DNA from: Candidatus Limosilactobacillus intestinipullorum
Lineage (GTDB): Bacteria; Bacillota; Bacilli; Lactobacillales; Lactobacillaceae
DNA length: 43,071 nucleotides
Direction of reading: 5' to 3'
Assembly: GCA_019117185.1 (NCBI GenBank)
Contig: DXAF01000028.1
Span: forward strand, 1 to 43,071
The notes below the pieces were generated by a model. It was not told the origin of the DNA and did no database searches. It worked only from the letters and a program-made list of their open reading frames with translations. A program made the position numbers and the translations under genes. The stretch's first letter is position 1; every line of letters starts with the position of its first letter. Positions 2,994 through 21,907 of this stretch are shown in pieces.

Positions 2994-3009
2994 TCAACAA
3001 AATTTAACG

Positions 3010-3040
3010 GGACTGTGACAGACGTCGACGGTCCTTTTTT
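3010..3040 (+). terminator. Rho-independent terminator after purK-like gene
   Basis: GGACTGT (3010-3016) pairs with ACGGTCC (3028-3034), with one G-U pair, followed by TTTTTT. Confidence 0.8.
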
Positions 3041-3048
3041 GTTATAAT
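3040..3048 (+). promoter_or_regulatory. Extended -10 promoter of pcrA-ligA-camS
   Basis: TGTTATAAT begins in the last T of the preceding terminator. Its -35 region would lie inside the terminator hairpin, and no TTGACA-like box is seen. It is 36 nt upstream of the pcrA start. Confidence 0.55.
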
Positions 3049-3084
3049 ATTAGCCGACTGATTTTTTAGAGAGGATGGAACGGC

Positions 3085-5382: not shown

Positions 5383-5386
5383 TTAA

Positions 5387-7441
<2,055 letters not shown>

Positions 7442-7445
7442 AATC

Positions 7446-8555
7446 GTGAAGTCGAAAATAAAAAAGATTGCAATAACCGCGGCTCTGTTAATGAGTACGA
7501 TTGTCCTTGCTTCATGTGGAAAGAATTCTTCAAAGGACTACAGCACGACCGGGTCAGGTAATGGTAATTACCAAGGGGTCATTCAAAATGGTCGGTATAA
7601 GACCAGTAAGGCCCGGGGAATCAACGTAGCCCAAAATGATAACCAGTTTAACCAAAAGAGCTTTGAAAGTGGCTTGACCCAGGTTTCGAAGCGGGTCTTC
7701 TCGCCGAAATCCTACATTTTCCAAGAAGGCCAGTACCTCAATACTGGTACCTTGCAAAGCTGGTTGGGCCGTAAGACCAAGAAGAACCCGAATGGTTTAA
7801 ACCCCACCCAGGGTAAGAAGAGTGACCCTAATCCAGAATATATTCAGCAGATCGAAGAGCAGGATTATATGACGGACAGTGGCCGGTCAATGAAGCTGAA
7901 GGGGGTTGTCATCGGGGTCGGGATTAACTCTGAATACAACTACCAAAAGAAGACGGACGGTCCTTCCTACACTAAGAAAATTAGTAAGGATGAGATGCAA
8001 CAGCAGGGTGAGATTGCTGCGCAAAAGATTTTGACCCGCCTACGGGAAAAGAAGGACCTGCGCGATGTACCAATTGTAATTGCGCTCTATAAGCAGGCGC
8101 CCGACGACAGCCTGGTGGGGGGCAGTTTCTTTGCCTACAGTAAGAACAATGGTAATAAGATTAGCAAGTGGACGAAGCTGGACTACAAGACGATGGTCTT
8201 ACCAAAGGCCTCAGCAACGAACGCAACCACAAGTGCGGATTCGACGGATAACGACAACTTCGCTAACTTCAAGAGCCAGATTCAAGGATTCTTCCCGAAC
8301 CTTAGTGGAGTTACTGCCCAGGCCCAGTACCATAATGGCCAGCTATCGGGGATGCACATTACCGTGACGACCCAGTTCTACAGTCAAACGGAAATCACTA
8401 GCTTTACCCAGTACATTGCGCGGGCAGCAAAGCGCTACCTGCCAAGTGGGATTCCAATTGATATCCGGATCCAGTCTGATTCCGAGATGCAAGCGATCGT
8501 ATACCGTGATGCGGGATCCGACACCTTTAGAACCCACGTCTTAGATTCGTATTAA
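7446..8555 (+). CDS. camS: CamS family sex pheromone-type lipoprotein
   Basis: Cell-surface lipoprotein of the CamS family; in enterococci and staphylococci the signal peptide of such proteins is processed to peptide pheromones. The N-terminus is basic, then hydrophobic, with lipobox LASC and the lipidated Cys at residue 24. The mature part is 346 aa and contains the family's tandem-like region (GVVIGVGINSEYNY; RDVPIVIALYKQAPDDSLVGGSFF; ending SDTFRTHVLDSY). GTG start 9 nt after AAGGAGGAA, which lies in the end of ligA. Last gene of the pcrA operon, followed by a terminator. Confidence 0.9.
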   Translation: MKSKIKKIAITAALLMSTIVLASCGKNSSKDYSTTGSGNGNYQGVIQNGRYKTSKARGINVAQNDNQFNQKSFESGLTQVSKRVFSPKSYIFQEGQYLNTGTLQSWLGRKTKKNPNGLNPTQGKKSDPNPEYIQQIEEQDYMTDSGRSMKLKGVVIGVGINSEYNYQKKTDGPSYTKKISKDEMQQQGEIAAQKILTRLREKKDLRDVPIVIALYKQAPDDSLVGGSFFAYSKNNGNKISKWTKLDYKTMVLPKASATNATTSADSTDNDNFANFKSQIQGFFPNLSGVTAQAQYHNGQLSGMHITVTTQFYSQTEITSFTQYIARAAKRYLPSGIPIDIRIQSDSEMQAIVYRDAGSDTFRTHVLDSY

Positions 8556-8566
8556 AACTTTTTATT

Positions 8567-8599
8567 AAGGACCGTAACTGTTGCAGTCGCGGTCCTTTT
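8567..8599 (+). terminator. Rho-independent terminator after camS
   Basis: AAGGACCG (8567-8574) pairs with CGGTCCTT (8590-8597), with an inner ACTG/CAGT stem. The T-tract is short. Confidence 0.8.
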
Positions 8600-8615
8600 G
8601 AGTTCGGCTAATCTG

Positions 8616-8624
8616 TGCTAGAAT
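8616..8624 (+). promoter_or_regulatory. Extended -10 promoter of gatCAB-dagK
   Basis: TGCTAGAAT lies 16 nt after the terminator T-run and 46 nt before gatC. A weak -35 candidate, TTTGAG, overlaps the terminator tail with 16 nt spacing to TAGAAT. Confidence 0.5.
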
Positions 8625-8670
8625 TGTAAAATGTATGTATACCTAAATTTGAGAAAAGAGGTAGAAATTG

Positions 8671-8988
8671 ATGGCCAGTAAAATTACCAAGCAGCAGGTT
8701 GCGCACGTCGCGGAACTAGCCAAGCTTGAATTTTCCAAGGATGAGCTCGGTGAATTTACCACCCAACTTGGAAGTATTATTGATATGTTTGAAGACCTCA
8801 CTGAAGAACACACGGAAGGTGTTGAACCGATGACGAGTGCAACCGACCGGGTCAACGCAATGCGTGAAGACAAGGCAGTTAAGGCACCCAAGGAAGAAGT
8901 CGACGCCTTATTGAAGAACGCCCCAGATGAAGATGGCGGCTACATCCGGGTACCAGTAATCATTGACGAAAGTGAGGATGGCGAATAA
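8671..8988 (+). CDS. gatC: Asp-tRNA(Asn)/Glu-tRNA(Gln) amidotransferase subunit C
   Basis: Small subunit that wraps round GatA and stabilises the GatCAB transamidosome. 105 aa. Family blocks visible: [33 protein letters not shown], and a C-terminal [16 protein letters not shown] at 8671 preferred over the adjacent in-frame TTG (8668) because of spacing to AAAGAGG. Its stop overlaps the gatA ATG by one base. Confidence 0.95.
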
Positions 8989-10460
8989 TGGATTATTACC
9001 AAACTGACTTAAGCCAGCTCCACGATGACCTGGTTAACAAAAAGATCAGCGCGCGTGAACTGACTAAGGAAACCTTTGAACACATCAAGGCTAACGAAGA
9101 CGACATTAAGGCCTTCATTACCCTCAATGAAGATGCGGCATTGAAGCAAGCGGCAGACATTGACCAGGCTGGGATTGCCGCGGACCAATTAGTTTCTGGG
9201 GTTCCGCTGGCCGTTAAGGATAACATCTTGACTAAGGGCCTGAAGACGACGGCCGCTTCAAAGATGTTAGAGAACTTCAACCCGGTTTATGACGCTACCG
9301 TAGTCGAAAAGCTGAAGGCGGCTGGCTACATCAACGTTGGTAAGACGAACCTCGATGAATTTGCCATGGGTTCTTCGACGGAAAATTCAGCCTTCTTTAC
9401 CACTCATAACCCGTGGGACCTAACCCGGGTGCCAGGTGGTTCTTCAGGTGGTTCTGCGGCTGCAGTTGCTGCTGGTTACGTTCTTGGTGCGTTGGGGACC
9501 GATACTGGTGGTTCCATCCGGATGCCCGCTTCCTTCAATGGGGTCGTTGGGATGAAGCCAACCTATGGCCGGGTTTCCCGGTGGGGGATCATTGCCTTCG
9601 GGTCAAGCTTTGACCAAGTTGGTTGGTTAACCCGGACCGTTAAGGACAACGCCTACCTGACGGCGTTGATTGCCGGAAACGACGAACACGATACGACTTC
9701 GTCACTTCAAGCGGTGCCAGACTGGGCAGCTAACCTGAACGAAAACACCAGCGTTAAGGGGATGAAGATTGCCGTACCAAAGGAATACTACGAGGACCTC
9801 AATGATGACGTTAAGAAGGTTGTCAAGGCAGCCTTAGACCACTTTGAGTCATTAGGGGCAACCGTTGATGAGGTCAGCCTGCCACACACTAAGTACGGGG
9901 TACCGGCTTACTACATCTTGGCCTCATCCGAAGCATCGTCGAACCTGCAACGTTATGACGGGATCCGTTACGGCTTCCGGGCACCAGATGCTAAGAACCT
10001 GGAGGAAGTATATGTTAAGACCCGTTCAGAAGGCTTTGGTGAAGAAGTTAAGCGGCGGATCATGCTGGGGACCTTCTCACTGTCTGCTGGTTTCTACGAT
10101 GCCTACTTTAACAAGGCCGCCAAGGTCCGTCGCCTGATCGCCCAGGACTTTGACAAGGTCTTTAATGACTATGACCTAATCATTGGTGCTACGGGTGCCA
10201 CGACTGCCTTTAAGATTGGTGCCGAAATTGATGACCCGAAGGCAATGTACATGAACGATATTTTGACCGTCCCTGTTAACATGGCCGGGCTGCCGGCGAT
10301 GTCAGTTCCAGCTGGTTTCTCTGATAAGACGGGGATGCCGGTGGGCCTGCAGATTATCGGAAAGCGGTTTGATGAACAGTCCATTTACAACGCTGGTTAC
10401 GTCTTTGAGCAAACCACGGATTGCCACAAGCAGGCACCAAAGTTAGGAGGGCAAAACTAA
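8988..10460 (+). CDS. gatA: Asp-tRNA(Asn)/Glu-tRNA(Gln) amidotransferase subunit A
   Basis: Amidase subunit that releases ammonia from glutamine for conversion of Glu-tRNA(Gln) and Asp-tRNA(Asn). 490 aa. The amidase-signature triad is intact: Lys77 in PLAVKDNI, cis-Ser152 in the [12 protein letters not shown] loop, and nucleophile Ser176 in [11 protein letters not shown]. Starts in a TAATG overlap with gatC; gatB begins one base after its stop, so the three subunits are translationally coupled. Confidence 0.97.
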
Positions 10461-10461
10461 G

Positions 10462-11886
10462 ATGAACTTTCAAACTACCATCGGACTAGAAGTCCACGTC
10501 GAATTAAAGACGAATTCAAAGATTTACAGTCCATCACCGGTTGACTTTGGTGACCAGCCAAATGCCAATACTAACGTGATCGACTGGGGGTACCCAGGGG
10601 TATTGCCAACCCTTAATAAGGGGGTTGTCCGTGACGGTATCATGGCGGGCCTGGCACTTCACGCTCAAATTGCTCACCGGATGCACTTTGACCGGAAGAA
10701 CTACTTCTACCCAGATAACCCGAAGGCCTACCAAATTACCCAATCAGCCACCCCAATTGCCCATGATGGTTGGATTGAGATTGAAGTGGATGGTAAGAAG
10801 AAAAAGATCGGGATCGAAGAGATGCACATCGAAGAAGATGCCGGTAAGAACACCCACACCAGTAAGTATTCCTACGTTGATTTGAACCGGCAGGGGACGC
10901 CACTGATCGAAATCGTTTCTAAACCTGACATTGCTTCGCCAGAAGAAGCGGTGGCCTACCTGGAAGCCCTCCGCCAGCGGATTCAATTTACCGGGATTTC
11001 AGACGTGAAGATGGAAGAAGGGTCCATGCGTGTTGATACCAACATCTCCATCCGCCCCGTTGGCTCGGACCAGTTCGGAACCAAGACGGAAATGAAGAAC
11101 ATCAACTCCTTCAACTACGTTCGTAAGGCCCTAGCCTTTGAAGAACAACGGCACCAACAGGTATTGATGTCTGGTGGTCACATCGCCCAGGAAACCCGGC
11201 GTTATGATGAACCAACCGGCACGACAATCTCAATGCGGACCAAGGAAGGGGCCGACGACTACCGTTACTTCCCTGAACCGGACTTGCCGCCCGTTGAGGT
11301 TAGTGACGAATGGATTAAGGAAATTGAAGACGAAATGCCGGAGATGCCTGGTGAGCGGCGGAAGCACTACGTCGACGACCTGGGATTATCTGACTATGAC
11401 GCCATGGTCTTAACCCAGACGAAGGAAATGTCGGACTTCTTTGAAGCCGCGGTTAAGGATGGTGGCGACCCCAAGCGGGTGGCTAACTACCTGATGAACG
11501 ATGTTAATTCCTACTTAAACGACAAGCACATTGACCTCCCAGATACCAAGTTGACTCCTGCCAACCTGGCCGGCATGGTTAAGCTGATCGATGACGGGAC
11601 GATTTCTTCTAAGATGGCCAAGAAGGTCTTCAAGGGGATCTTGAACGGTGAAGAACCAAGTGCCTACGCTAAGGAACACGGTCTGGTTCAGCTCTCGGAT
11701 CCGGCACAATTACAGCCAATTGTTGACGATGTGTTGGCAAACAATGCCCAGTCAATTGAAGACTTTAAGAATGGTAAGGACCGGGCCGTTGGTTACCTGA
11801 TGGGCCAGATCATGAAGCAGACCCGTGGGAAGGCTAACCCACAGGTGGTTACCCAATTATTGATGAAGTCACTGAAGGCGAAGTAG
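10462..11886 (+). CDS. gatB: Asp-tRNA(Asn)/Glu-tRNA(Gln) amidotransferase subunit B
   Basis: Kinase and tRNA-binding subunit: phosphorylates the tRNA-bound Glu or Asp and transfers ammonia. 474 aa, full length. Signatures: [22 protein letters not shown] at the start, the [13 protein letters not shown] block, [17 protein letters not shown], and the tail domain (about residues 330-474) ending [18 protein letters not shown] with AGGAGGG in the end of gatA. dagK follows after 10 nt. Confidence 0.97.
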
Positions 11887-11896
11887 GAGGATCATC

Positions 11897-12904
11897 ATGC
11901 GTAAACGGGCACGGATAATTTATAACCCAACTGCTGGTCGCGAAGCCTTGCGTAACGACCTGGTAGATATCCTAGATATCTATGAAAAGGCTGGTTACGA
12001 GACGAGTGCGTTTGCGACGACCCCGGCACCTAACTCGGCGAAAAACGAGGCGACCCGGGCGGCCAAGGAAGGCTTTGACCTGATCGTGGCCGCCGGTGGG
12101 GATGGAACGTTGAACGAGGTGGTCAATGGGATCGCCGGCCTGGAAAAGCGGCCAACGATGGCGATTATTCCGGCCGGGACGACCAATGACTATGCCCGGG
12201 CATTACGGATTCCTCGTGATGATCCGATCGCGGCGGCCAAGCTGATCTTACGGAAGAACAAGAAGTTCAAAATTGACATTGGTAAGGCCGGCGATAACTA
12301 CTTCATGAATATCGCAGCGGGGGGCACGCTAACGGAATTGACCTACGACGTGCCATCTCAGATGAAGTCGTTGTTTGGCTATGCTGCTTACTTGGCCAAG
12401 GGGGCGGAGTTATTACCACAAGTCAAGCCGGTGGATGTTTCTGTCAAGTACGATGGACATGAATACCGGGGAACCGCTTCGACCTTCTTCTTAGCGCTGA
12501 CTAACTCGGTCGGTGGCTTTGAGCAAATTGTGCCAGACGCCTCCTTGGATGACGGTAAGTTTACGATGATTATCGTCAAGAAGAGCAGCCTGACAGATAT
12601 GCTGAGTCTGATGGCCAAGGCCTTGCAAGGGAAGCACCTTGATGATCCGCGGATTGTCTACGCTAAGGCTACTGATGTGGAAGTGACGCCACTCAACCAG
12701 GATGACCGCTTGATGATCAACCTGGATGGTGAGTACGGTGGCGATGCGCCGATGAAGTTCCACGACCTCAAGCAGCACATTGAGGTTGTTGCCAACCTGG
12801 ATGCTATCCCGGAGGACGCCATTACCGAGTCGCCGGACTTCAAGCGAGTCGAAAAGGACTTCGTGGAAGGGGTCGGCAAGATTAACCAGGATCAAGAAAA
12901 GTAA
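11897..12904 (+). CDS. dagK: Diacylglycerol kinase (DgkB/DagK lipid kinase family)
   Basis: Soluble lipid kinase that phosphorylates diacylglycerol released by lipoteichoic acid synthesis. 335 aa. Motifs: YNPTAGREAL near the N-terminus, AAGGDGTLNEVVNGI (about residues 69-83) for nucleotide binding, IPAGTTNDYARAL, and C-terminal LNQDDRLMINLDGEYGGDAP. ATG preceded by AGGAGG. In lactobacilli this gene commonly follows gatB, as here. The dense positive/negative tail (DFKRVEKDFVEGVGKINQDQEK) has no assigned role. A strong terminator follows. Confidence 0.93.
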   Translation: MRKRARIIYNPTAGREALRNDLVDILDIYEKAGYETSAFATTPAPNSAKNEATRAAKEGFDLIVAAGGDGTLNEVVNGIAGLEKRPTMAIIPAGTTNDYARALRIPRDDPIAAAKLILRKNKKFKIDIGKAGDNYFMNIAAGGTLTELTYDVPSQMKSLFGYAAYLAKGAELLPQVKPVDVSVKYDGHEYRGTASTFFLALTNSVGGFEQIVPDASLDDGKFTMIIVKKSSLTDMLSLMAKALQGKHLDDPRIVYAKATDVEVTPLNQDDRLMINLDGEYGGDAPMKFHDLKQHIEVVANLDAIPEDAITESPDFKRVEKDFVEGVGKINQDQEK

Positions 12905-12913
12905 TAATAAGCG

Positions 12914-12950
12914 AAACAGCTAGTGTTACCGTACGGATACTAGCTGTTTT
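12914..12950 (+). terminator. Strong Rho-independent terminator after gatCAB-dagK
   Basis: An 11-bp perfect stem, AAACAGCTAGT (12914-12924) with ACTAGCTGTTT (12939-12949), and an inner CCG/CGG helper stem, running into TTTTT. Confidence 0.92.
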
Positions 12951-12959
12951 TGCTATAAT
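12951..12959 (+). promoter_or_regulatory. Extended -10 promoter of rlmD
   Basis: TGCTATAAT starts immediately after the terminator T-run, so the promoter's upstream part overlaps the hairpin. The rlmD start is 36 nt downstream. Confidence 0.6.
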
Positions 12960-12995
12960 AGGGAAAGTTAATTACGTGAAAATGGAGGCAACATC

Positions 12996-14372
12996 GTGAA
13001 AGTTAATATTCCGGTTCATAAAAATGAAGAATACCAGGCGGAAGTAACCGACCTGACCTATGAGGGTAACGGGGTAGTTAAGATTGCCGACTTTCCGGTC
13101 TTCGTGCCCAACGCCCTGCCGGGGGAAAAGGTGACCGTGCGGATAACTAAGGTTGCCCGTCACTTTGCCTGGGGCCGGGTGATGGAATGGCAAACGAAGA
13201 GTCCCGACCGGGTCGACGTTAAGGATAAGAAGTATATTCAAACCGGGATCGCACCGCTGGGGCACCTGAAGTACGCAGCCCAATTGCAGTTTAAGCAGCA
13301 CCAGATTAAAGAATTGCTTGAAAAGTCCCACCTAGACGACATTGAGGTATTGCCGACGATGGGGATGGACCGGCCCTATCACTACCGGAATAAGGCCCAA
13401 GTCCCGGTTAAGATGGTACGGGGCCAGCTGCAGACTGGTTTTTACAAGCGGGGGAGTCATACCCTGGTACCGATTGAGGACTTTTACATTCAAGATCCAC
13501 AAATTGATAAGGCAATCGTGGTGGTTCGTGACCTCTTGCGGAAGTACCACGTGACCCCGTATGACGAGCGGACCGGTAATGGTGTCATTCGAACGGTGAT
13601 GGTGCGCCGTGGTTACTACAGCCATGAGGTGATGGTCGTATTGGTCACCAACACGAAACGGCTGCCGATGGCCAAGCAAATTGTGGACGGCATCGTGGCT
13701 GGCGTGCCAGAATTGAAGAGCATTGTCCAGAATATCAATGAGAAGAAGACCAACCGCCTGCTGGGTAACCGTGATCGGACCCTGTGGGGGGATGACGAGA
13801 TCCATGACCAACTGCTGGGGATTGACTTTGCAATTTCGCCACTGTCGTTCTACCAGGTCAACCCGCAACAGACGGAGCGCCTTTACCAGACGGCTATTGA
13901 TAACGCTGGTCTGGATGGTAATCAGACGGTGATTGACGCCTACTGTGGGATTGGAACAATTTCCCTGGCCGTGGCCAAGCATGCCAAGCAGGTTTATGGG
14001 GTGGAAATTGTGCCTGCCGCGATTGAAGATGCCAAGCACAACGCTAAGCGGAACGGAATTCAAAACGCCAAGTTCGTGGTCGGCAAGGCGGAAGAGCAGT
14101 TTGCCAAGTGGCAAGCAGCCGGGCTAAAGCCGGACGTGGTAATTGTGGACCCACCACGCAAGGGCCTTGCGGAATCTTTGATTGAGGCGACCGGCAAGAT
14201 GGCGCCACGGAAGGTGATTTATGTTTCCTGTAACCCGGCCACCCTGGTGCGTGACATCCAGCGTTTCGGTGAGCAGGGCTACCACGTGGTCAAGCCAATC
14301 CAGCCCGTTGATCAGTTTCCGCAGACGACGCATGTCGAGTCCGTAACAGTCCTTGAACGTACAGAAAAATAG
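12996..14372 (+). CDS. rlmD: 23S rRNA (uracil-C5)-methyltransferase RlmD/RlmCD type
   Basis: SAM-dependent TrmA/RumA-family enzyme making m5U in 23S rRNA. 458 aa. The N-terminal TRAM domain contains VTDLTYEGNGVVKI and PGEKVTVRI. The methyltransferase domain shows DAYCGIGTISLAVA, VIVDPPRKGL and YVSCNPATLVRDI, with catalytic Cys near residue 412. The iron-sulphur cysteines between TRAM and catalytic domain, found in E. coli RlmD, are missing; that stretch reads GIAPLGHLKYAAQL. GTG start behind ATGGAGG. Single-gene unit with its own promoter. Whether it modifies one or two uracils cannot be told from sequence. Confidence 0.9.
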   Translation: MKVNIPVHKNEEYQAEVTDLTYEGNGVVKIADFPVFVPNALPGEKVTVRITKVARHFAWGRVMEWQTKSPDRVDVKDKKYIQTGIAPLGHLKYAAQLQFKQHQIKELLEKSHLDDIEVLPTMGMDRPYHYRNKAQVPVKMVRGQLQTGFYKRGSHTLVPIEDFYIQDPQIDKAIVVVRDLLRKYHVTPYDERTGNGVIRTVMVRRGYYSHEVMVVLVTNTKRLPMAKQIVDGIVAGVPELKSIVQNINEKKTNRLLGNRDRTLWGDDEIHDQLLGIDFAISPLSFYQVNPQQTERLYQTAIDNAGLDGNQTVIDAYCGIGTISLAVAKHAKQVYGVEIVPAAIEDAKHNAKRNGIQNAKFVVGKAEEQFAKWQAAGLKPDVVIVDPPRKGLAESLIEATGKMAPRKVIYVSCNPATLVRDIQRFGEQGYHVVKPIQPVDQFPQTTHVESVTVLERTEK

Positions 14373-14411
14373 GTTATAAATGCCGGCGTAACGGTATTTT
14401 TAGGTGATCGG

Positions 14412-14457
14412 AAGTGTACTGATTCTGGCTTTAACGATTGGAATTAGTACACTTTTT
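14412..14457 (+). terminator. Rho-independent terminator after rlmD
   Basis: A 14-bp stem, AAGTGTACTGATTC (14412-14425) with GAATTAGTACACTT (14441-14454), one G-U pair, followed by TTTTT. Confidence 0.9.
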
Positions 14458-14732
14458 CTATTTGAAGCTGGCGGGTCGAGTGTTCTATGTCCTATTTCGA
14501 TAGTCGAGTAGTCGAATGTCCAGTTTGGCAGGTCGTGTCGATTAGGGTAGTGGAAGTAGAGGTGAGCCTTGATATGGTAGCGTTTGTGGTATGTACGAAT
14601 CGGTTAGTTTGGTACTAAGGATTGAGTTAACAAAAATAATATTGAATTTATGCTAATTCGGTTAAAATATCGAAAATTCGCAGGAGAGTTGTATACTCGA
14701 CGTATATGACAAAAATTATTTTTTAAATACAT
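14458..14732 (+). other. Intergenic stretch with no recognisable gene, upstream of IS30 insertion
   Basis: About 275 bases between the rlmD terminator and the IS30 left end. I see no convincing reading frame. Composition turns AT-rich towards 14640. Short TCGA-containing words recur (TCGAGTGTTC, TCGATAGTCGAGTAGTCGAATG) near 14477-14519, possibly degenerate repeat debris. The final bases ACAT (14729-14732) are the left target duplication. Confidence 0.6.
14729..14732. repeat. Target-site duplication, left copy (ACAT)
   Basis: ACAT directly precedes the IS30 left inverted repeat and is repeated directly after the right one (15797-15800). Because both ends are flanked by T/A, a shorter 2-bp reading is possible. 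Confidence 0.65.
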
Positions 14733-14758
14733 GGTAGATTGTAAGATTAAATAGAATT
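14733..14758 (+). repeat. IS30 left terminal inverted repeat
   Basis: Begins GGTAGATTGTAAGATT and matches the reverse complement of 15771-15796 at 21 of 26 positions, the first nine being identical. Confidence 0.88.
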
Positions 14759-14848
14759 CTACCCAGACGAAAAATTTGGATAGAAAAAGGCAATGGACCC
14801 GGTATTGTTTTAAGTGACAAAACTATAAACAACAGGAGTCCATTACCC

Positions 14849-15781
14849 ATGAGTCATATTTTAACATTATCGGATAGAACTGTCATCCAAACGCTGCTTA
14901 AGGTTGGTTACTCACAAAAACAAATTGCTGAAGAAGTTGGTGTAGCTCCTTCAACCATCAACTATGAACTAAAGCGCTGTCCTAAGGGATACTATGACGC
15001 TGATCAATCTCAGGAAGACTGCGAAAAGAAGCTAACTCACCGGGGGCGGAAAACTCTTCTAACAGAGAATTTAAGAGAATTCGTCCGTGGGATTATTCTC
15101 GAACAGCGGTGGAGTTTTGAAGTTATCGCGCATATTCTCTAAATGCCATTCAAAACCTTCTATAACTGGCTGGACAAGGGCTGGTTGGACATCAAACGCG
15201 AGGTCCTTCCAGACCACGGTGTGCGGTACCGAAAGAGTCACGATGGTCGTGGTCAGTACACACGTGGGGCGAAGTTTATCAACCAACGCCCGGACGAGGC
15301 TAACCTGCGTCAAGAGATTGGTCATTTTGAAGTCGATACCATCCTATCAGGAAAAACCAGGGGTGAGGTCCTAGCTACCTTTACTGATCGTAAGTCCCGA
15401 CCAATGATTATTCGTCGTTTACCGGGACGTGATAGTAAAGCTATGACTAAGGCAATCCTAGAGCTTAACGAGGAGTTGCGCGGCTTGATCAAGTCGATCA
15501 CCAGTGATCACGGTAAGGAATTCGCAGGCTTCAAGGAAATTGAAGCCTACGGAATTGCCCATTATTTTGCCCACCCGTATGCGCCACATGAACGCGGAAC
15601 CAACGAAAGGTTGAACCGCGAGCTTCGGCTACACATTCCAAAGAACCAGTCAATTGAGAGCGTTACAGACGAAGATCTGACCATGATCTCAAAGTACTTA
15701 AATTGGCGTCCCCGGAAATGTTTGGGGTGGAAAACGCCACTCCAAGTCTTCTTTGGTGACTTGTCCGAAAAATTCGATTAA
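14849..15781 (+). pseudogene. IS30-family transposase interrupted by an in-frame TAA
   Basis: Read through, the frame is 310 codons plus stop, the normal length for this family. The N-terminal part has a helix-turn-helix (YSQKQIAEEVGVAPSTINYELKR). The C-terminal part has the DDE catalytic residues: GHFEVDTILSG, ITSDHGKEFAG and HERGTNERLNRELR. A TAA at 15140-15142 (codon 98) separates them; the frame is otherwise unbroken, so one base substitution is enough to explain it. An ATG follows directly (15143), so the DDE part could be translated alone, but it would lack the DNA-binding region. ATG at 14849 has AACAGGAG upstream. Probably inactive unless helped in trans. Confidence 0.88.
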
Positions 15782-15796
15782 TTGTTGCAATCTACC
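15771..15796 (-). repeat. IS30 right terminal inverted repeat
   Basis: Reverse complement begins GGTAGATTGCAACAATT and pairs with 14733-14758. It contains the last codons and stop of the transposase. Confidence 0.88.
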
Positions 15797-15800
15797 ACAT
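15797..15800. repeat. Target-site duplication, right copy (ACAT)
   Basis: Matches 14729-14732 on the other side of the element. Confidence 0.65.
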
Positions 15801-15838
15801 ATAGAATAAACATGGTGATTACGAATGAAGGTGCTTTC

Positions 15839-17086
15839 ATGAAAAATAAAATAAGTGATAAGAATATGTTTCAGAATTTTGAGGTAAAGGCCTACTGGTT
15901 TCTTAATGACAATCAAAATTCCGGCTCTTACGGTTTTTTAAAATATAATGCTGGTCAGGATTCTGTATTCGAGATATCACCTGCTTTTTGTGATAAAACT
16001 GAACAATTTAATAGTCCATCACCATATGATATTTGTGGGATTTCTGAATATGGAGAAATTATCCGCGGAATTGGATACAGAGTAGGTAGTTCTTTTAATC
16101 ATCCGGGATTAAGCATTGAAAAGATTCAATTCTTTGATTTTTCTATTGATAATTTTAGAGATGATAGTTTTTCTCCAAAATTAGTTAATTTTTCAGCTAC
16201 AGATTTTAATTACTGGTTTCCAAACCAGAAGTTTTCAATTCCTGATAAAGGCTTGGGGGTTATTATTGAGACTCCTAAAGCAACCGAAATAGGAAAGATT
16301 AAATACGATAATTTCGATTATATTTTGAAAATAGGGTATGCTAACTCTTCAGAATCACAAAATTATAATCATAAATTTAATATTCGTATGAATACATTTC
16401 TTATGTTAGAGGCAGATCAAACTTTAGCAGAAAATAAAACTATGCAACTGATACAAAAGATCATTGAAATGTATGAAATTATTGCTGAACCTGCGAGCTT
16501 AAAGGATGTTTGCTATATAGAAGGAAACAAGAAAAGAAAACTATTTCTAAATCCTAAATATAAAAATTTTCTAGATAATAAATACAGTCCCAATCTTTTT
16601 TTCTTAGACTATAATGATGTCCAATCGGAGTTGCTCAGTGTGATAAATAATTGGGTAAGTTCCTCAAAAGAGTTACAGTTACTGGTGGATGACTATTTGT
16701 TAACGGTTAACTACAGGTCGGTAATTGAAAATGATCTTGTCAATTATACACAAGGCATTGAATCGTATTTTAGAAATGAACGTCTTACTTTGAGGGATAA
16801 AATAAACAAATTTATTGAGGAATTGCCTGAATCCTATAGAGAACTATTATCTGAACACGTTGGAAATACAGATGATTGGATTGGAAAGCTTGTAAGCACA
16901 AGGGTATTCCTAACACACGGAGATAGAGAAAATATGGCGGTATCTAATCCTTATAAGTTAGTGCAGATGACAAAAATATTCGGCTTTATGGTTAGAATCT
17001 TTATTTTACAAAAATTAGGGATAACCATTGATAAACCAAAGATACTTAATAAATTTAAGAATGTTTTAACTACTCATTACTATTAA
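15839..17086 (+). CDS. ApeA-like HEPN-domain protein, probable anti-phage RNase
   Basis: 415 aa. The N-terminal part (about residues 15-260) resembles the ApeA N-terminal domain: a beta-rich region with GSYGFLKYNAG, DICGISEYGEIIRGIGYRVGS and a late DYWFP-like NYWFPNQKF. The C-terminal part (about 300-415) resembles the ApeA HEPN domain: NYTQGIESYFRNERLTLRDK, then LVSTRVFLTHGD with R355-x4-H360, the HEPN RNase motif. HEPN proteins of this family act in abortive-infection-type phage defence by cutting RNA. Start ATG 15839 has GAAGGTG 6 nt upstream. Codon use is clearly AT-rich compared with the core genes, which points to horizontal gain. It stands alone, directly downstream of the IS30 copy. 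Function is inferred from fold and motif, not proven. Confidence 0.75.
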   Translation: MKNKISDKNMFQNFEVKAYWFLNDNQNSGSYGFLKYNAGQDSVFEISPAFCDKTEQFNSPSPYDICGISEYGEIIRGIGYRVGSSFNHPGLSIEKIQFFDFSIDNFRDDSFSPKLVNFSATDFNYWFPNQKFSIPDKGLGVIIETPKATEIGKIKYDNFDYILKIGYANSSESQNYNHKFNIRMNTFLMLEADQTLAENKTMQLIQKIIEMYEIIAEPASLKDVCYIEGNKKRKLFLNPKYKNFLDNKYSPNLFFLDYNDVQSELLSVINNWVSSSKELQLLVDDYLLTVNYRSVIENDLVNYTQGIESYFRNERLTLRDKINKFIEELPESYRELLSEHVGNTDDWIGKLVSTRVFLTHGDRENMAVSNPYKLVQMTKIFGFMVRIFILQKLGITIDKPKILNKFKNVLTTHYY

Positions 17087-17140
17087 GTAACACGAACTTA
17101 CTGTAAATTAGGTTTAATAAAGATCAGAATGTTTAAAATA

Positions 17141-17165
17141 GCACCCAGCCAAAATAGCTGAGTGC
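17141..17165 (-). terminator. Minus-strand hairpin terminator after the 30-codon frame
   Basis: GCACCCAGC (17141-17149) pairs with GCTGAGTGC (17157-17165). Read on the minus strand, the stem gains a G-U pair and is followed by TATTTTAAA. It could end a minus-strand transcript covering 17181-17273, or be a plus-strand structure after the ApeA-like gene, where no T-run follows. Confidence 0.5.
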
Positions 17166-17180
17166 CGTACACCATAAATT

Positions 17181-17273
17181 TTACATATTAACTCTAATTA
17201 CTTCACCATCTTTGAACGTGAACTCTGTATTGCGTTTATAGATGGTGATTTTTGCATAAAGCTTGTTGTCCAT
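17181..17273 (-). CDS. Possible 30-aa peptide of unknown function (repeat family copy 1)
   Basis: Frame MDNKLYAKITIYKRNTEF followed by TFKDGEVIRVNM and TAA. The same peptide core (ITIxxRxxxFTxKDxEVI) is encoded by a second copy at 19268-19326, where no start codon is in frame. No good ribosome site is visible before the ATG, so translation is doubtful. The coding alternative is supported by amino-acid conservation; the alternative is a structured RNA or protein-gene debris. Confidence 0.3.
   Translation of the reverse strand: MDNKLYAKITIYKRNTEFTFKDGEVIRVNM
17196..17255. repeat. 60-bp dispersed element, copy 1
   Basis: Begins AATTACTTCACCATCT and ends AGATGGTGATTTTTGC. TCACCATCT and AGATGGTGA form a 9-bp perfect inverted repeat around a loop of about 30 nt. 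Copy 2 lies at 19268-19326, and a 15-bp fragment at 17348-17362. Confidence 0.75.
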
Positions 17274-17347
17274 TTTCTAAAATGGTAAATTTGGTCAAGA
17301 AAAAGAAGGCAAACGGCATAGATTACAACAAATATATCCTTAATAGT

Positions 17348-17362
17348 AATTACTTCACCATC
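17348..17362. repeat. Fragment of the 60-bp element (left arm only)
   Basis: AATTACTTCACCATC is identical to the left arm of copy 1. The right arm is missing. It lies just before the ribosome site of the uracil-DNA-glycosylase-family gene. Confidence 0.6.
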
Positions 17363-17383
17363 ATTTAAAGAGGGCTAGTGGGC

Positions 17384-17971
17384 ATGGCAGATTATTTTAA
17401 CCAAATTAGACAAGCAATCATCGAAACTCCTGAAAACGAGGTATTTACGAAGCAGGGCATTAAGCCGTTATATGCAGCCTATCCAGAAGCGCGGATTAAT
17501 ATAATTGCCCAGGCACCAGGGCAAAAGGCGCAAGAACAGCAGATGTTTTGGAATGATCGCAGTGGCCAACGTTTGCGTGACTGGTTGGGCGTTTCGTGGG
17601 ATGAATTTTACCATTCCCGAAAAATTGCCATTATGCCCATGGACTTTTATTTTCTGGGTAAGGGACGGAGTGGTGACTTGCCACCCAGAGCTGATTTCGC
17701 TAAGAAATGGCATCCGCAGTTAATAAAGCTAATGCCGCACATCCAACTGACGATCTTAGTTGGCTCATATGCATCACATGCCTATCTCCATCTGCCGCGG
17801 TCGGTTAAGCAAACGACGATTGTGCAAAACTATCAGAAGTATTTACCCGATTATTTTCCCATTATTCACCCATCACCGAGAAATCAGATTTGGATAAAAA
17901 AGAATCCCTGGTTTCGTACAAACGTCTTACCTGATTTACAGCATCGTGTTCGAAAGATCATGGAATTGTGA
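17384..17971 (+). CDS. Uracil-DNA glycosylase family protein
   Basis: Probably removes uracil or a related damaged base from DNA. 195 aa of the UDG-like superfamily. Motif 1 is IIAQAPGQKAQE (about residues 40-51), followed by WNDRSGQRLRDWLGV, the PMDFYFLGKGRSGDLPPR block and the C-terminal HPSPRN (162-167) that corresponds to the leucine-loop motif. No cysteine cluster for an iron-sulphur centre is seen. ATG at 17384 is 9 nt from AAAGAGGG; an upstream in-frame GTG at 17378 is too close. It follows the ApeA-like gene by about 300 bases but has more core-like codon use, so cotransfer is not certain. Confidence 0.85.
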   Translation: MADYFNQIRQAIIETPENEVFTKQGIKPLYAAYPEARINIIAQAPGQKAQEQQMFWNDRSGQRLRDWLGVSWDEFYHSRKIAIMPMDFYFLGKGRSGDLPPRADFAKKWHPQLIKLMPHIQLTILVGSYASHAYLHLPRSVKQTTIVQNYQKYLPDYFPIIHPSPRNQIWIKKNPWFRTNVLPDLQHRVRKIMEL

Positions 17972-18000
17972 ACTTGAGGATACTTCAAAATAGACAAACC

Positions 18001-18030
18001 TTGACTACGAAAACATCCATTTGTTATAGT
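18001..18030 (+). promoter_or_regulatory. Promoter of the B3/4-domain gene leader
   Basis: TTGACT (18001-18006), 18-nt spacer, TATAGT (18025-18030) with an extended TG at 18022-18023. The best two-box promoter in the window. Transcription would begin near 18037. Confidence 0.75.
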
Positions 18031-18036
18031 AATGTC

Positions 18037-18125
18037 AATTTAATAACCTAAGTTCAGAGGGTTTGTAAAAATTACAAGCTGGATAAGAGCGTTGCTGCGG
18101 CAGCGGGTTTCTTATCCAGCTTTTT
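18037..18125 (+). ncRNA. Attenuator-like 5' leader ending in an intrinsic terminator
   Basis: Between the promoter and the B3/4-gene ribosome site (AGGAGG, 18131-18136) lies an RNA leader of about 90 nt. It can form AACC/GGGTT (about 18046-18064), then a small TTGTAA/TTACAA hairpin (18063-18077), and then a terminator. The last two share bases, so they could be alternatives. No T-box sequence is present and I cannot assign a known riboswitch class. Confidence 0.5.
18076..18125 (+). terminator. Intrinsic terminator inside the leader, upstream of the B3/4-domain gene
   Basis: A 13-bp perfect stem, AAGCTGGATAAGA (18076-18088) with TCTTATCCAGCTT (18110-18122), an inner GCTGC/GCAGC helper stem and TTTTT. 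It lies directly before the ribosome site, so it would switch off the downstream gene. Confidence 0.85.
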
Positions 18126-18142
18126 ATTTTAGGAGGAATATT

Positions 18143-18855
18143 ATGAAGTTTATTGTTACACCAGAAATTTTTGAAAAGTTGCCGAACATGTATGTGGGGT
18201 CGTGGTTGCTCATGGGATTAATAATCAAACGTCTTACCCGCAAACTTCGCAGATGTTGGAAAAGTACGAAAAGCTTGCGCAAGATAAGTTTACTGGTGTT
18301 AATGTAAAGCAACACCCAGAGATTGTTCCTTATCGTGAAGCGTTTCGGAAGATAGGAATTAATCCGAATAAGTACCCGTGCTCAGTCGAAGCAATGTTCA
18401 AGCGTCTATCCAAGGGAAAGAAGCTGCCTCATATTAATCCGCTCGTTGACCTCAACAATGCCATTTCGTTGAAATACACTTTGCCAATGGGTACTCACAA
18501 TTTGGATAATGCCCAAGACAATATTGAGATGCGGCTAACTAATCCAGATAACGATACTTTTATTCCGCTCGGCAAGACATCTGAAGATATGGAAAAGCCA
18601 GAAGCAGGTGAGGTTATTTACGCGATCGGCAATGAGGTGAGAACGCGACGGTGGACCTGGCGGCAAAGTGACCAGGGTAAGATCACTGCAACTACACAGA
18701 ATGTTTTTTTCCCAATCGATGGTTTTGTCGATGTAAACAAGGGTCAGGTTGATCAGGCTGTGCGGGATCTAACAACTCAGTTGGAAACTATCTTTAAGGT
18801 TGAGGTCCAAAGTGGGGTTGTTGATAGAGAGCATTCAACGTTTGAATGGAAGTAG
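18143..18855 (+). pseudogene. B3/4-domain protein (PheT B3/4-like), frameshifted
   Basis: Proteins with a free-standing B3/B4 domain resemble the editing domain of the phenylalanyl-tRNA synthetase beta chain; their cellular role is not settled. The frame starts at ATG 18143 behind AGGAGG (MKFIVTPEIFEKLPNMYVG), then shifts. The rest (VVAHGINNQTSYPQTSQMLEKYEK to the end at 18855) continues in another frame. Restoring one G in the GGGG run at 18196-18199 joins them as MYVGVVVAHGINNQT, giving about 237 aa. The later part could be made alone from GTG 18202. Real mutation or a base-calling slip in a G-run cannot be told apart. Confidence 0.8.
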
Positions 18856-18970
18856 CATTAAGTTATGACTAATAAACATCTTATTGAGAATGTCGAAATG
18901 GATAAGTATGGTTATTATAATCCTAAGAAGTCCTGGCTTTTATGACGGGATGGTTAATACAGCCGATTGA

Positions 18971-19198
18971 TTAAAGACCTAATTGTTTCTTCACATCTTC
19001 GCGAGATATGGTTTTGCCATGAGACTCATGGATAATTTTGAATGCATCTTGGTAGTCAAGACTATCTTCAAGCTTTTCTAAAACGGTGTTACGTATGAAT
19101 TCGGTAGGAGTTTGACCATCAAGAGCAGCCTGTTTGCAAATCAAATTTAAAACATCTTCATTAAAACGGATAGTAGTAAATTTAGTAGCAGCGGCCAT
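18971..19198 (-). CDS. Orphan ribbon-helix-helix antitoxin (RelB/DUF6290-like)
   Basis: 75 aa. The N-terminal ribbon-helix-helix fold is seen in KFTTIRFNEDVLNLICKQAA followed by GQTPTEFIRNTVLEKLED; such antitoxins bind their own operator and neutralise a RelE/YafQ-type toxin through the C-terminal part (here DYQDAFKIIHESHGKTISREDVKKQLGL). ATG with AGGAGGT upstream on the minus strand. No toxin gene follows: the space beyond its stop is the end of the B3/4 gene on the opposite strand. It may be a decayed pair, or a lone regulator acting in trans. Confidence 0.75.
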   Translation of the reverse strand: MAAATKFTTIRFNEDVLNLICKQAALDGQTPTEFIRNTVLEKLEDSLDYQDAFKIIHESHGKTISREDVKKQLGL

Positions 19199-19228
19199 GC
19201 TTAGACCTCCTCTGATTTTCTAATTAAT

Positions 19229-19234
19229 ATTATA
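19229..19234 (-). promoter_or_regulatory. -10 box of the antitoxin gene
   Basis: TATAAT on the minus strand, about 31 nt upstream of the ATG. No clear -35. The surrounding ATTAATATTATA is partly symmetrical and could be an operator. Confidence 0.45.
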
Positions 19235-19267
19235 TCTTGTCAGAAAGCAATTAATTCATGGAAAATC

Positions 19268-19326
19268 AATTACTTCACTATCTTTTAGCGTGAATGCCGG
19301 ATAGCGCTGAAAGATGGTGATTTTGC
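19268..19326. repeat. 60-bp dispersed element, copy 2
   Basis: About three quarters of positions match copy 1 (17196-17255). TCACTATCTTT and AAAGATGGTGA can pair over 11 bp with one G-U pair, so the stem is kept although the base changed. On the minus strand it encodes KITIFQRYPAFTLKDSEVIDFP and a stop, without an in-frame start. Confidence 0.7.
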
Positions 19327-19422
19327 TTTTTGATTCATAAATCGCTATGATAAAAGCAATCCGAAAAGAAGAAAACGATAATAATCGCTTAGTGACGATT
19401 TAAGACAGGAGTGTGGATAGGC

Positions 19423-20277
19423 TTGATTTCAGCAGCATCACATTCAAAAGCAGTGGTGATCTTGGTTCATGGGATGCAAGAGTACAGTGACCGCTATGCC
19501 AGTTTTTGTAAATACTTAAATGCCAAGGGCTATAGTACCATTCGTTATGACCTGTTGGGGCACGGTAAAAACTTACCGCGCAATCAACGCGGCTACTTCG
19601 GCAAAAATGGCTGGAAAAATTTGTTGAAACAACTCCACCAGTATGTTCAGCAGGCCCACCTCCAGTTTCCAGGCCAGAAAATTATCTTATTTGGGCACTC
19701 GATGGGCAGCATTATCATTCGCAGCTACCTGCAACACTACCATGATTTTGACGGCATGATTCTTTCCGGGGTTCCTTACTACAACCCATTATGGAAAGTG
19801 GGTAAAGTAATCAGCAAAACGTTGATTAATGTTAAGGGAGCCCATCATCATAGTCATTTTCTGAATAAACTGACCACGGGGAGTTTTAACAAAAAGGTAC
19901 ACAACCCCCTCACTGCTTTTGACTGGCTCAGTCATAATCGTTGGAACGTGCAATCATATATTCATGACGCCGCGTGTGGCTTTCCATTTACCAACCAAGG
20001 TTATAGTGACTTATATGATGGCATGGGCGAGCTGGGCAAGTTGCGTCATTTTGTCAGTAAGCATCCGGTTCCCGTTTTAATGTTGAAGGGCGCGGATGAT
20101 CCTTGTTCAGGTAATAAATCACAGATTAAAGACTCCTTTAACATGATCAAAAATGCGGGCTACCATGATCTAGCTCTCAAGATTTATCAAAACATGCGTC
20201 ATGAAATTCTCTTCGAAGGGAATGCCAAGACAGTTAAACAGGATATTACTAACTGGCTTGACCACCACTTTGCTTAG
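19423..20277 (+). CDS. Alpha/beta hydrolase, monoacylglycerol lipase/lysophospholipase type
   Basis: 284 aa of the serine aminopeptidase S33 (Hydrolase_4) group. Oxyanion region VVILVHGMQEYSDRY (residues 11-25), nucleophile elbow GHSMGS with Ser93, acid in KGADDPCSG (Asp225 or Asp226) and His260 in NMRHEILFE: the triad is complete. No signal peptide, so it is cytoplasmic. Likely hydrolyses monoacylglycerol or a similar ester. The start is uncertain: TTG 19423 is 11 nt from AGGAG and matches the usual N-terminus, while GTG 19411 overlaps that site. A single gene, with a terminator about 165 bases downstream. Confidence 0.85.
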   Translation: MISAASHSKAVVILVHGMQEYSDRYASFCKYLNAKGYSTIRYDLLGHGKNLPRNQRGYFGKNGWKNLLKQLHQYVQQAHLQFPGQKIILFGHSMGSIIIRSYLQHYHDFDGMILSGVPYYNPLWKVGKVISKTLINVKGAHHHSHFLNKLTTGSFNKKVHNPLTAFDWLSHNRWNVQSYIHDAACGFPFTNQGYSDLYDGMGELGKLRHFVSKHPVPVLMLKGADDPCSGNKSQIKDSFNMIKNAGYHDLALKIYQNMRHEILFEGNAKTVKQDITNWLDHHFA

Positions 20278-20320
20278 CACGATTGGGCAAGATAGTACTA
20301 ATAAAATCAATGCCCCCTGG

Positions 20321-20416
20321 TTTAATCATCAGACGGAGACCTTGAACGCGTAGAGTTAAACTGTATTCGACTCGTGGTGGAATTTCAGGATCAACATGAT
20401 TATCCGTTAATATAAT
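20321..20416 (-). pseudogene. Relic of an HxlR-family transcription regulator
   Basis: On the minus strand the frame reads NHVDPEIPPRVEYSLT, the signature end of the HxlR winged helix (wing followed by PPRVEYSLT), then decays into LRVQGLRLMIK. There is no helix-turn-helix before it and no start codon with ribosome site. A remnant of about 30 residues. Confidence 0.6.
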
Positions 20417-20438
20417 CGTACGTGGGCTACGAGCCCGT

Positions 20439-20472
20439 AACGCCATCGACTTTTGGGTTGGTGGCGTTTTTT
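20439..20472 (+). terminator. Rho-independent terminator
   Basis: AACGCCATC (20439-20447) pairs with GGTGGCGTT (20460-20468), one G-U pair, followed by TTTTTT. It may end the hydrolase transcript or belong to a lost gene. Confidence 0.75.
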
Positions 20473-20768
20473 ATATGGATATTACAGGAGGGGAATTCTT
20501 TCTTGGAATTCAATCAGTATAATCTGGTAGATTGGATTGGTTAGCACTATTCGAAAAATAACAGAAAATGTCGCTAGAATGCTTCCGGATATTAGCTATG
20601 TATCAATAGATGACAGAAGCACCTTTAATGATGGTTTACGACTTAACCCAGAGTTGGAAACGTAAGATAACGGCATTCTGGCAGTCTTGAAACTTAACCA
20701 ACTCATTTATAACAACATGCTTTTCAAGAATTGCTATGAGAAGATGTCCAGTTGGGACTGAATGTCTT
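20473..20768 (+). other. Region of reading-frame fragments with no intact gene
   Basis: A good ribosome site (AGGAGGGG near 20488) precedes a TTG-started frame that stops after 13 codons. A further frame reads STIRKITENVARMLPDISYV and stops at TAA near 20663, and another reads NQLIYNNMLFKNCYEKMSSW to a stop at 20761. These look like debris of one or more small genes that I cannot name. Confidence 0.4.
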
Positions 20769-21308
20769 TTATAGACTAATCCTTAATTCTGCTAATGCCT
20801 GTTGGCCATGGGCAAACTCGTTATTGTGGTAACTTAGGGGAAAAGATTCCTCATAAACGGTAGCATTTGTTGGATACCCCGCCTGTTTCATTAGCTGTTC
20901 AAGAAAGAAAAGGTAATTTTGCCGTGACCACATAAAGTTAACGCAAAGGTAGTTTCCAGAGACATCCTCCACATTTAAAGCGGAATTATATTCTGAAACT
21001 ACTAACTCCTTAAAAGCTGTTTGGTAGTGGATATCCGTCAACTTGACGGGGTGCGAATAGGAAAAACTAAATCCGTATTCGAGATTTGGAATCTGATTGC
21101 TATCCAGTAACTGTTGGTTTAACTGGGCTACTAGCTGATCGGGTACATCGGCGGGCCCCCAAGGATGTGACGTCGCAATGGATGCAATCGTCTTCCTGAT
21201 CTTTTTTCGGTAGGGGCCCTGATTGAGGTGGGCCTTCATTACCCTAAGATTAGCAGCGTATTTATCTAATAGAAGTGGAATGTAAATCTTAATAGGCCGG
21301 TGGATCAT
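20769..21308 (-). CDS. Hypothetical protein of unknown family
   Basis: 179 aa starting MIHRPIKIYIPLLLDKYAANL. I do not recognise it. No signal peptide or membrane segment and no catalytic motif stands out. It is rich in aromatic residues (SFSYSHPVKLTDIHYQ, CVNFMWSRQNYLFFLEQL). A longer start at 21356 (MTIKLFIYLTRF) is in frame but would overlap the neighbouring relic further, and neither start has a strong ribosome site. It converges with the debris at 20473-20768 and diverges from the broken gene that begins about 21309. The 5' part may have been lost at the junction near 21300. Confidence 0.5.
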   Translation of the reverse strand: MIHRPIKIYIPLLLDKYAANLRVMKAHLNQGPYRKKIRKTIASIATSHPWGPADVPDQLVAQLNQQLLDSNQIPNLEYGFSFSYSHPVKLTDIHYQTAFKELVVSEYNSALNVEDVSGNYLCVNFMWSRQNYLFFLEQLMKQAGYPTNATVYEESFPLSYHNNEFAHGQQALAELRISL

Positions 21309-21907
21309 CGTATTTATTTTGAACCTGGTAAGATAGATAAAGAGTTTTATAGTCAATTATCGTTTGCTGATGTTAAATACTTTAAGCAGCAACTATGTAT
21401 AAAGCATTTGCACAATACTTAGATGAATTTAAATATCAAGCGCCACAGCCTTTGAATATTTCTATAAAAGATAAAACAGATGGTACTGGGAATAATGTTA
21501 TTTCACAACGAATAAAGTATTCGGCTAAAGATGAATGTACCGATATCTCTGATTTTAATACTGATAATGCACCAGCCTATCTTAAAGAATATCTTACTTG
21601 GAGTCATGGTGGTAAAAAGGAGATTTATAAGATTTCAAAAGAAAGAGCATTAAATTATTTCGAGAAAAATAGTAGTAGTTCAAGTACGTTATTTTTTACA
21701 TTGACAACGCCCACAAAGGCAACGGTTTACAATTCACATTATATTTGATATTGTACCGGTGTCTCTGCAAAGAATGTATCAAATATTCTTTTGACTAAGG
21801 TTAAAAATGATAAGCAAGAAGCTGTATTTAAGCAACCATTAAAATTGTCAAAGAAGAGGCTGGGGGAAATATGCGTTTTTTCCGATTTCTTTTTGTTATC
21901 GAAGTAG
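21309..21907 (+). pseudogene. Broken gene of unknown function (frameshift plus in-frame stop)
   Basis: The 5' part reads RIYFEPGKIDKEFYSQLSF and then ADVKYFKQQL in one frame, and continues from ATG 21395 as MYKAFAQYLDEFKYQAPQPL in another; a single-base change at about 21393 would join them. The second frame reaches TGA at 21746, after which it stays open as YCTGVSAKNVSNILLTKVK to a TAG at about 21905. The pattern is that of a larger gene truncated at its 5' end, frameshifted, and with an internal stop. The family is not recognised. An intact protein from 21395 to 21748 (117 aa) is possible but has no ribosome site. Confidence 0.55.

Follow-up and report, generated by a model that had tools for sequence, protein, structure and literature searches.

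An ApeA-family gene downstream of rumA

The window analysed here is a stretch of 43,071 nucleotides from Candidatus Limosilactobacillus intestinipullorum, and its forward strand carries an apeA-like gene at 15839–17086, whose reading frame runs from an ATG at 15839 to a stop codon ending at 17086 and encodes a protein of 415 amino acids. Upstream on the same strand lie an intact rumA-like (uracil-5-)methyltransferase gene (12996–14372; 458 amino acids, with tRNA_U5-meth_tr and TRAM domains), a conserved leader (14376–14731), and an insertion of the IS30 family (14732–15797). A first-pass annotation had read the product as an ApeA-type N-terminal region joined to a HEPN domain with the motif R355-VFLT-H360, and had proposed a profile search as a check; its coordinates, both domains, and the motif were borne out. 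Both Pfam profiles score above their cut-offs: ApeA_NTD1 (PF18862) at residues 15–272 (E = 3.3e-10, 40.4 bits against 25.5, profile positions 1–271 of 271) and HEPN_Apea (PF18739) at residues 314–396 (E = 5e-10, 40.4 bits against 24.4, profile positions 53–133 of 136). RVFLTH begins at residue 355, which places the arginine at R355 and the histidine at H360. The best PADLOC model for the protein is PDC-S58 (2.2e-19), followed by Cas13-ApeA (2e-12); NCBIfam gave nothing meaningful (lowest E 0.042) and PHROGs no match at 0.01.

When the window protein was aligned with 16 relatives, picked for length and diversity from family and order searches and 14–28% identical to it, only G32, R355, and H360 were invariant in all 17 rows. 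The alignment omits two near copies (L023, L043), two loci in which the motif is present (L027, L032), two with another or a partial open reading frame (ORF; L028, L047), and the window itself as recovered by the searches (L049); seven further loci had no printed ORF for it (L026, L033, L041, L044, L045, L051, L052). Outside the alignment, the motif is absent at the HEPN position in the partial L047 and in the printed ORF of L028. AlphaFold, run on a four-row alignment, gave low-confidence models, poor for the whole protein and middling for the HEPN domain; a Foldseek search of the low-confidence model against the PDB found no match at E ≤ 0.001, and neither profile nor single-sequence searches of PDB sequences with the window protein found a relative.

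Because distant full-length homologues with intact frames are known (for example in G138 and G163, at 30% identity), the 415-residue form is a normal member of its family, and because copies elsewhere match both of its ends (residues 1–100 in L006 at 99%, residues 254–415 in L002 and L003 at 98.8%), the ORF is full-length and not fused to the insertion sequence. A fusion protein of IS30 and apeA had been considered separately and was ruled out by L006, which has the same start without an IS30. The gene is a genuine ApeA-family member and ordinary as such; its origin is unexpected and better defined than the first-pass annotation could make out. As the first-pass annotation had noted, the gene is AT-rich (31.0% GC at 16001–17000, against 44–53% in each kilobase across 2001–16000). 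A ribosome-binding-like GAAGG precedes its ATG.

The annotation had also placed an IS30 copy beside the gene, and an IS30-family transposase (NF033563, transpos_IS30) does lie directly upstream, interrupted by a single in-frame TAA at 15140–15142 (pieces 14849–15142 and 15143–15781). The element has the ends TGGTAGATTG and a 2-bp CA target duplication, and the empty site is visible in L006 and L008, which rules out the insertion as the maker of the gene boundary. Only 41 bp separate its end from the apeA-like start codon, and it stands between that gene and the putative promoter block of the leader.

A phage-borne cargo slot at the 3' end of rumA

The leader ties the gene to a larger unit. Its identity to that of other species climbs near position 14450, from 62–78% to about 94–98% (L002, L003, L005, L008, L014), with no such rise in L006 (75% overall), and it is common to units with unrelated cargo. 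It contains a promoter-like TCGAAA-16-TATACT at 14670–14697, and 12 of 14 aligned leader units have some version of a GTATACTCGACGTATA-like block; L101 has lost it, and the excerpt of L237 stops before it. A promoter scan found 10 sites against 10.1 in shuffled sequences, so that the argument for this putative promoter is its conservation.

To the right of the apeA end, the opposite strand of three relatives (L002, L007, L008) encodes a pair of large serine recombinases, LSR1 and LSR2, of 525 and 553 amino acids. The pair matches the integrase family phrog_95 (the L008 pair was tested), and beyond it lie phage genes: L007 has those for endolysin, head closure, and major head protein, and L008 one for a portal. 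The carrier of the slot in these relatives is a temperate phage with an integrase; the window itself retains remnants only. Where such a phage would integrate is suggested by two prophages, in genomes G008 and G047, whose attR-like far ends share CATGT[C/T]GAG with rumA; the inferred att core in the window is CATGTCGAG, within rumA at 14331–14339 on the forward strand. Both genomes have a duplicate rumA 3' end (at contig position 291548 in G008, about 37 kb from the first, and at 1068174 in G047, about 38 kb away), the far ends reading ...AGCTCGTGG-CATGTTGAGAG... and the near ends ...ACG-CATGT[C/T]GAG.... Site-specific integration into rumA would be the simple reading of these ends.

The association holds across the genus. 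LSR1 has matches at E ≤ 1e-20 in 20 of 50 genus genomes, with at least 75% identity in 16; in 13 of these 16 at least one copy lies within 10 kb of a rumA or leader match on the same contig, in the other three (G014, G021, G029) LSR1 and that match fall on separate contigs, and G010 has an additional copy whose contig shows no rumA match. A tandem array at rumA was seen in G017 (L238:5791–8083), where, at two successive junctions with nearly identical joins, an LSR1 tail (residues 505–525) lies no more than 26 bp from a fresh rumA 3' end; in this genome, units of a cassette plus a recombinase tail pile up at rumA.

The slot has fixed borders. In the 19 loci supplied for border analysis (alignments of fewer than 30 columns dropped), 14 carry other cargo. 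On the left, similarity to the window ends at 14667–14726 in 11 of these 14 and at 14558–14576 in L237, L238, and L242; on the right, it resumes at 17116–17135 in 11 of 14 and at 17094 in L109, with no resumption reported in L110 and L113. The borders thus fall at about 14706 and 17135 in the window. The right border begins with a hairpin (17135–17170, forward strand; 17138–17170 folds at -11 kcal/mol, z -4.9), followed by a stronger fold at 17200–17262 (-22.6 kcal/mol, z -5.2) that leads into five U, and a comparable one at 19262–19328 (-24.5 kcal/mol, z -4.9) leads into four U. Because these strong folds run into U stretches, the 3'-end tails of the recombinase genes, which they overlap, look like embedded terminators. 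A simple terminator scan of 14373–17400 did not list the 17200–17262 hairpin, and no Rfam RNA reached its gathering score in 14000–20500.

Between these borders the cargo differs from genome to genome. Slot contents were read by hand, with Pfam and PADLOC profiles run on representatives. Remnants of apeA occupy four of 13 slots (G008, G020, G039, G041) and an Mrr_cat gene, whose partner varies, another four (G010, G023, G028, G047); single slots hold an SLFN_AlbA_2 gene (G037; an identical copy in IMG/VR matches PDC-S50 at 6e-114), AbiJ (G027; 5e-75), and three ORFs of no convincing family (G024). Two more (G036, G048) contain genes that, judging by eye from their sequences, we take to be NUDIX-like, nicotinate phosphoribosyltransferase, and nicotinamidase genes of NAD salvage. 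A defence-profile gene or a homologue of one is thus present in 10 of 13 slots, counting the four apeA remnants, and AbiJ homologues also lie downstream of rumA in G006 and G026, where LSR1 was not found. Fixed borders and exchangeable defence cargo, the marks of a prophage-borne anti-phage hotspot, occur together at this site.

Other kinds of cargo were seen as well. Large surface proteins fill the slot in six IMG/VR loci (L145, L151, L154, L159, L160, L182), and the one tested, from L145, has lectin, MucBP, Muc_B2, and LPXTG domains, which suggests that prophages also swap adhesins at the rumA slot. Because surface proteins are carried too, the site is better described as a general lysogenic-conversion slot rich in defence cargo. 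Cargo resembling NAD salvage recurs in L101 (G036), L107 (G048), L150, L155, and partly L171, and could help phages against NAD-depleting defences. A 404-residue slot protein (L165:10629–11843, and L166, both from IMG/VR), 81% identical to a 354-residue ORF of G008 (L057:37–1101), has by eye the HEPN-like motif R-S-N-I-V-H, yet neither Pfam nor PADLOC gave a match; it is possibly an unnamed defence family.

The first-pass annotation had described a gene that stands alone and was probably acquired for defence. By gene count it does stand alone, but it belongs to a larger cargo unit. Horizontal acquisition is supported because the 3' part of apeA is 98.4–99.4% identical between species (L002, L003, L005, L006) while rumA is only 71–88% identical (L002, L005, L008, L009); it came, however, as cargo of a lineage of rumA-integrating prophages. 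The same 3' part is also more alike than the LSR1 tail (81–93%; L002, L003, L007, L008), which fits exchange of the cassette, and the leader (94–98% in most loci) is close behind it. A host defence gene acquired on its own, without a phage, could have landed near rumA by chance, and such an event would leave a single AT-rich gene of the kind seen, none of the ORFs tested from 12996 to 21356 being a structural gene of a phage; the leader, the slot borders, the recombinase tail, and the prophage relatives at the same site argue against it. The leader and tail in particular, being shared, already weigh against this account, which seems to us very improbable.

A broader proposal gathers these observations. 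The common rumA leader with its promoter-like block, together with the twin hairpins, may form the one-cassette 'defence socket' of a two-recombinase prophage family for which the rumA site of lactobacilli would be the landing place, and in which ApeA, AbiJ, type IV restriction endonuclease, and Schlafen-type genes would be exchangeable between phage backbones and between genera, and tandem leftovers of cassette plus recombinase tail would amount to a chromosomal immune record. We give this proposal an even chance.

Remnants of the carrier and broken copies of the gene

In the source genome the carrier has left little. At 17184–17270, on the reverse strand, the last 29 codons of LSR1 remain (69% identity to residues 497–525, E = 2.4e-5), and this remnant doubles as the hairpin and T-run at 17200–17262; it was the only match reported when the source genome (90.8% complete, 74 contigs) was searched with LSR1. 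A second LSR1 3' end with its hairpin lies at 19268–19324 on the reverse strand, outside the matches of that search, with 84% nucleotide identity to the end of the L008 gene and 75% identity over LSR1 residues 502–521. LSR2 has no match in the source genome, and no attR-like far-end arm was found in the window or the source genome. Contig C5 of that genome does have distant matches to the major head protein and the portal (C5:14851–17110; L243, L244), which, being only 24% and 27% identical, belong to a different phage; searches with LSR2, head, and portal thus found no body of the related phage in the source genome.

Between the two recombinase tails lie a UDG-superfamily gene (17378–17971, forward strand; PF03167), a B3/4-domain gene (18202–18855, forward strand; PF03483), and a small DUF6290-type gene for 75 amino acids (18971–19198, reverse strand; PF19807, E = 1.3e-11). 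A homologue of the first (65%) sits one gene ahead of LSR1 in G048 (L107). With the LSR1 tail at its end, 17270–19324 is probably a second, degenerate cargo unit.

Near-identical copies of apeA are spread across two genera. A pattern scan of a collection of genomes from 84,980 species found eight loci in seven genomes (L. secaliphilus, L. kefiranofaciens, L. timonensis, L. panis with two loci, L. acetotolerans, L. coleohominis, and L. portuensis), and searches of 50 genomes from the genus and 397 from the family, both sets including the source genome, added G014, G020, G041, and G322, the last of which could be the same species as L003. The scans of the genome collection and of IMG/VR relied on short exact patterns and so reach close relatives only. 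All 11 other genomes hold pieces only, at 96–100% DNA identity to the window across the loci compared: eight of the 11 share a breakpoint at window position 16598 (residue 254), two retain residues 1–36 and 377–415, and the piece in G014 begins at residue 386, 53 bases from its contig end. In IMG/VR five loci turned up, all of them fragments, and the three scans of viral contigs, this one among them, yielded only fragments or few distant relatives. The window copy is the sole full-length one found. A plasmid or free-phage origin was also considered, and was rejected when tblastn at E 1e-5 found no match in 72,556 plasmid and 50,697 phage records.

A 151-residue ORF containing the HEPN domain is retained in L002, L003, L168, and L169, and its sequence would be compatible either with a functional 'HEPN-only' allele or with recent decay. 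In two genomes (L008:7962–8020, and the reverse strand of L102 in G028) the leader is fused identically to apeA residue 377, at a ATGACAAAAAT microhomology.

These copies bear on the suggestion, made in the first-pass annotation, that the gene is intact through selection to keep it. Given fragmentation in 11 other genomes and an IS30 that splits the gene from its putative promoter, that suggestion finds no support; where most copies are broken, a single intact one does not amount to evidence of selection. The same two facts, with the reduction of LSR1 to a 29-codon tail, would suit a genomic relic, in which the family assignment is right but the copy is unexpressed behind the IS30 and intact only through recent insertion and phage loss. 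Against this, the ORF is whole and has its GAAGG, and read-through is possible, since the transposase gene is co-oriented and ends 57 bp upstream; the lone terminator-like site on the way (15720–15747) is not above chance (one, against a shuffle mean of 2.1). We regard a relic as rather unlikely.

Proposed function and comparison with known systems

Our preferred reading, which we consider probable, is that the apeA-like gene encodes a phage-triggered, abortive HEPN RNase of the ApeA family that arrived as cargo of a rumA-integrating prophage, since decayed. The β-rich N-terminal domain would be a sensor fused to the C-terminal HEPN domain, which probably dimerises and so brings R355 and H360 together. 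The protein would stay inactive until it senses some component of an infecting phage; the triggered enzyme would then cut RNA and thereby halt the cell ahead of phage release (abortive infection). What the sequences show is membership of the family, a conserved motif, the architecture of the slot, cargo that differs between genomes, and horizontal spread; expression, RNase activity, a dimer, a trigger, and a defence phenotype are inferred from these. The gene would have entered with a temperate phage that integrates in the rumA 3' end through its large serine recombinase pair and holds one exchangeable cassette between the rumA-side end and the recombinase genes; carried by a prophage, it would shield the lysogen, and hence the prophage, from rival phages. 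In the source genome the phage body would then have been lost, the cassette staying behind with the IS30 upstream. Divergence of the N-terminal region, which the first-pass annotation took as a hint of a different phage trigger, is possibly just that, but alone it says little, since ApeA-NTD1 is 'abundant but poorly conserved' according to PMC3710099, which gives it about 300 amino acids, mainly β, joined to HEPN.

A HEPN protein in this position might instead serve the prophage itself, as an induction checkpoint or an addiction toxin, with defence as a side effect. It is prophage cargo adjoining an integrase, and Tha, a HEPN protein of prophages, is also able to block the phage from which it comes once that phage is induced (PMC11087260). 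Yet no second forward-strand ORF of at least 60 amino acids lies between the IS30 and the hairpins (shorter ones were not listed), so there is no obvious antitoxin; a 72-residue reverse-strand ORF (15698–15916) overlaps the start of the apeA-like gene, and the other cargo of the slot is of restriction and abortive-infection type. We hold this alternative to be improbable.

An orphan-looking gene is now placed in a defined slot carried by phages, and sequence alone is enough to catalogue what that slot contains. The bacterial genus concerned has uses in food and probiotics, and the slot is a ready source of further candidates, such as the 404-residue protein of L165.

ApeA is reportedly a single-gene HEPN anti-phage system, said to have been described by Gao et al. 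in 2020. The window gene has in common with it the ApeA_NTD1 and HEPN_Apea domains, the R-x4-H motif, and the single-gene layout; it differs in that PADLOC ranks the candidate family PDC-S58 above Cas13-ApeA for it, and the likeness is drawn through profiles rather than by direct comparison of proteins. PMC10952713 counts ApeA among HEPN defence systems. Tha, according to PMC11087260, is a HEPN RNase of a Staphylococcus aureus prophage triggered by phage tail proteins, and it is likewise a prophage-borne single HEPN RNase with Arg-x4-His for which abortive infection is proposed; the window protein differs in its ApeA_NTD1 domain and in its slot beside serine recombinases. As to a counterpart of Ith, the cognate inhibitor of Tha, the window unit has no second forward-strand ORF of at least 60 amino acids (no search was made for shorter ORFs or for homologues of Ith).

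The integration site, too, has precedents. Streptococcal integrative and conjugative elements (ICEs) that carry one serine integrase insert into rumA, as PMC4701971 describes; they share the target gene, but, on that account, their attR lies inside the integrase gene, unlike that of the elements in lactobacilli. The phage phi-SsuFJNP3_rum also targets rumA, and its recombinase is 52% identical to LSR1; in the 8.6 kb examined, rumA and the recombinase genes after it share a strand, and the annotation includes no defence gene. In the open-access papers that literature searches listed, neither titles nor the openings of abstracts mention a rumA cargo slot in lactobacilli, which does not prove that none has been described. 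In organisation the slot resembles the hotspots of P2-like phages and P4-like satellites (PMC9122126), which are likewise phage-borne slots with exchangeable anti-phage genes; those belong to other hosts and phages, whereas the rumA slot is found in lactobacilli and is distinguished by its two-recombinase end and its shared leader and hairpins.
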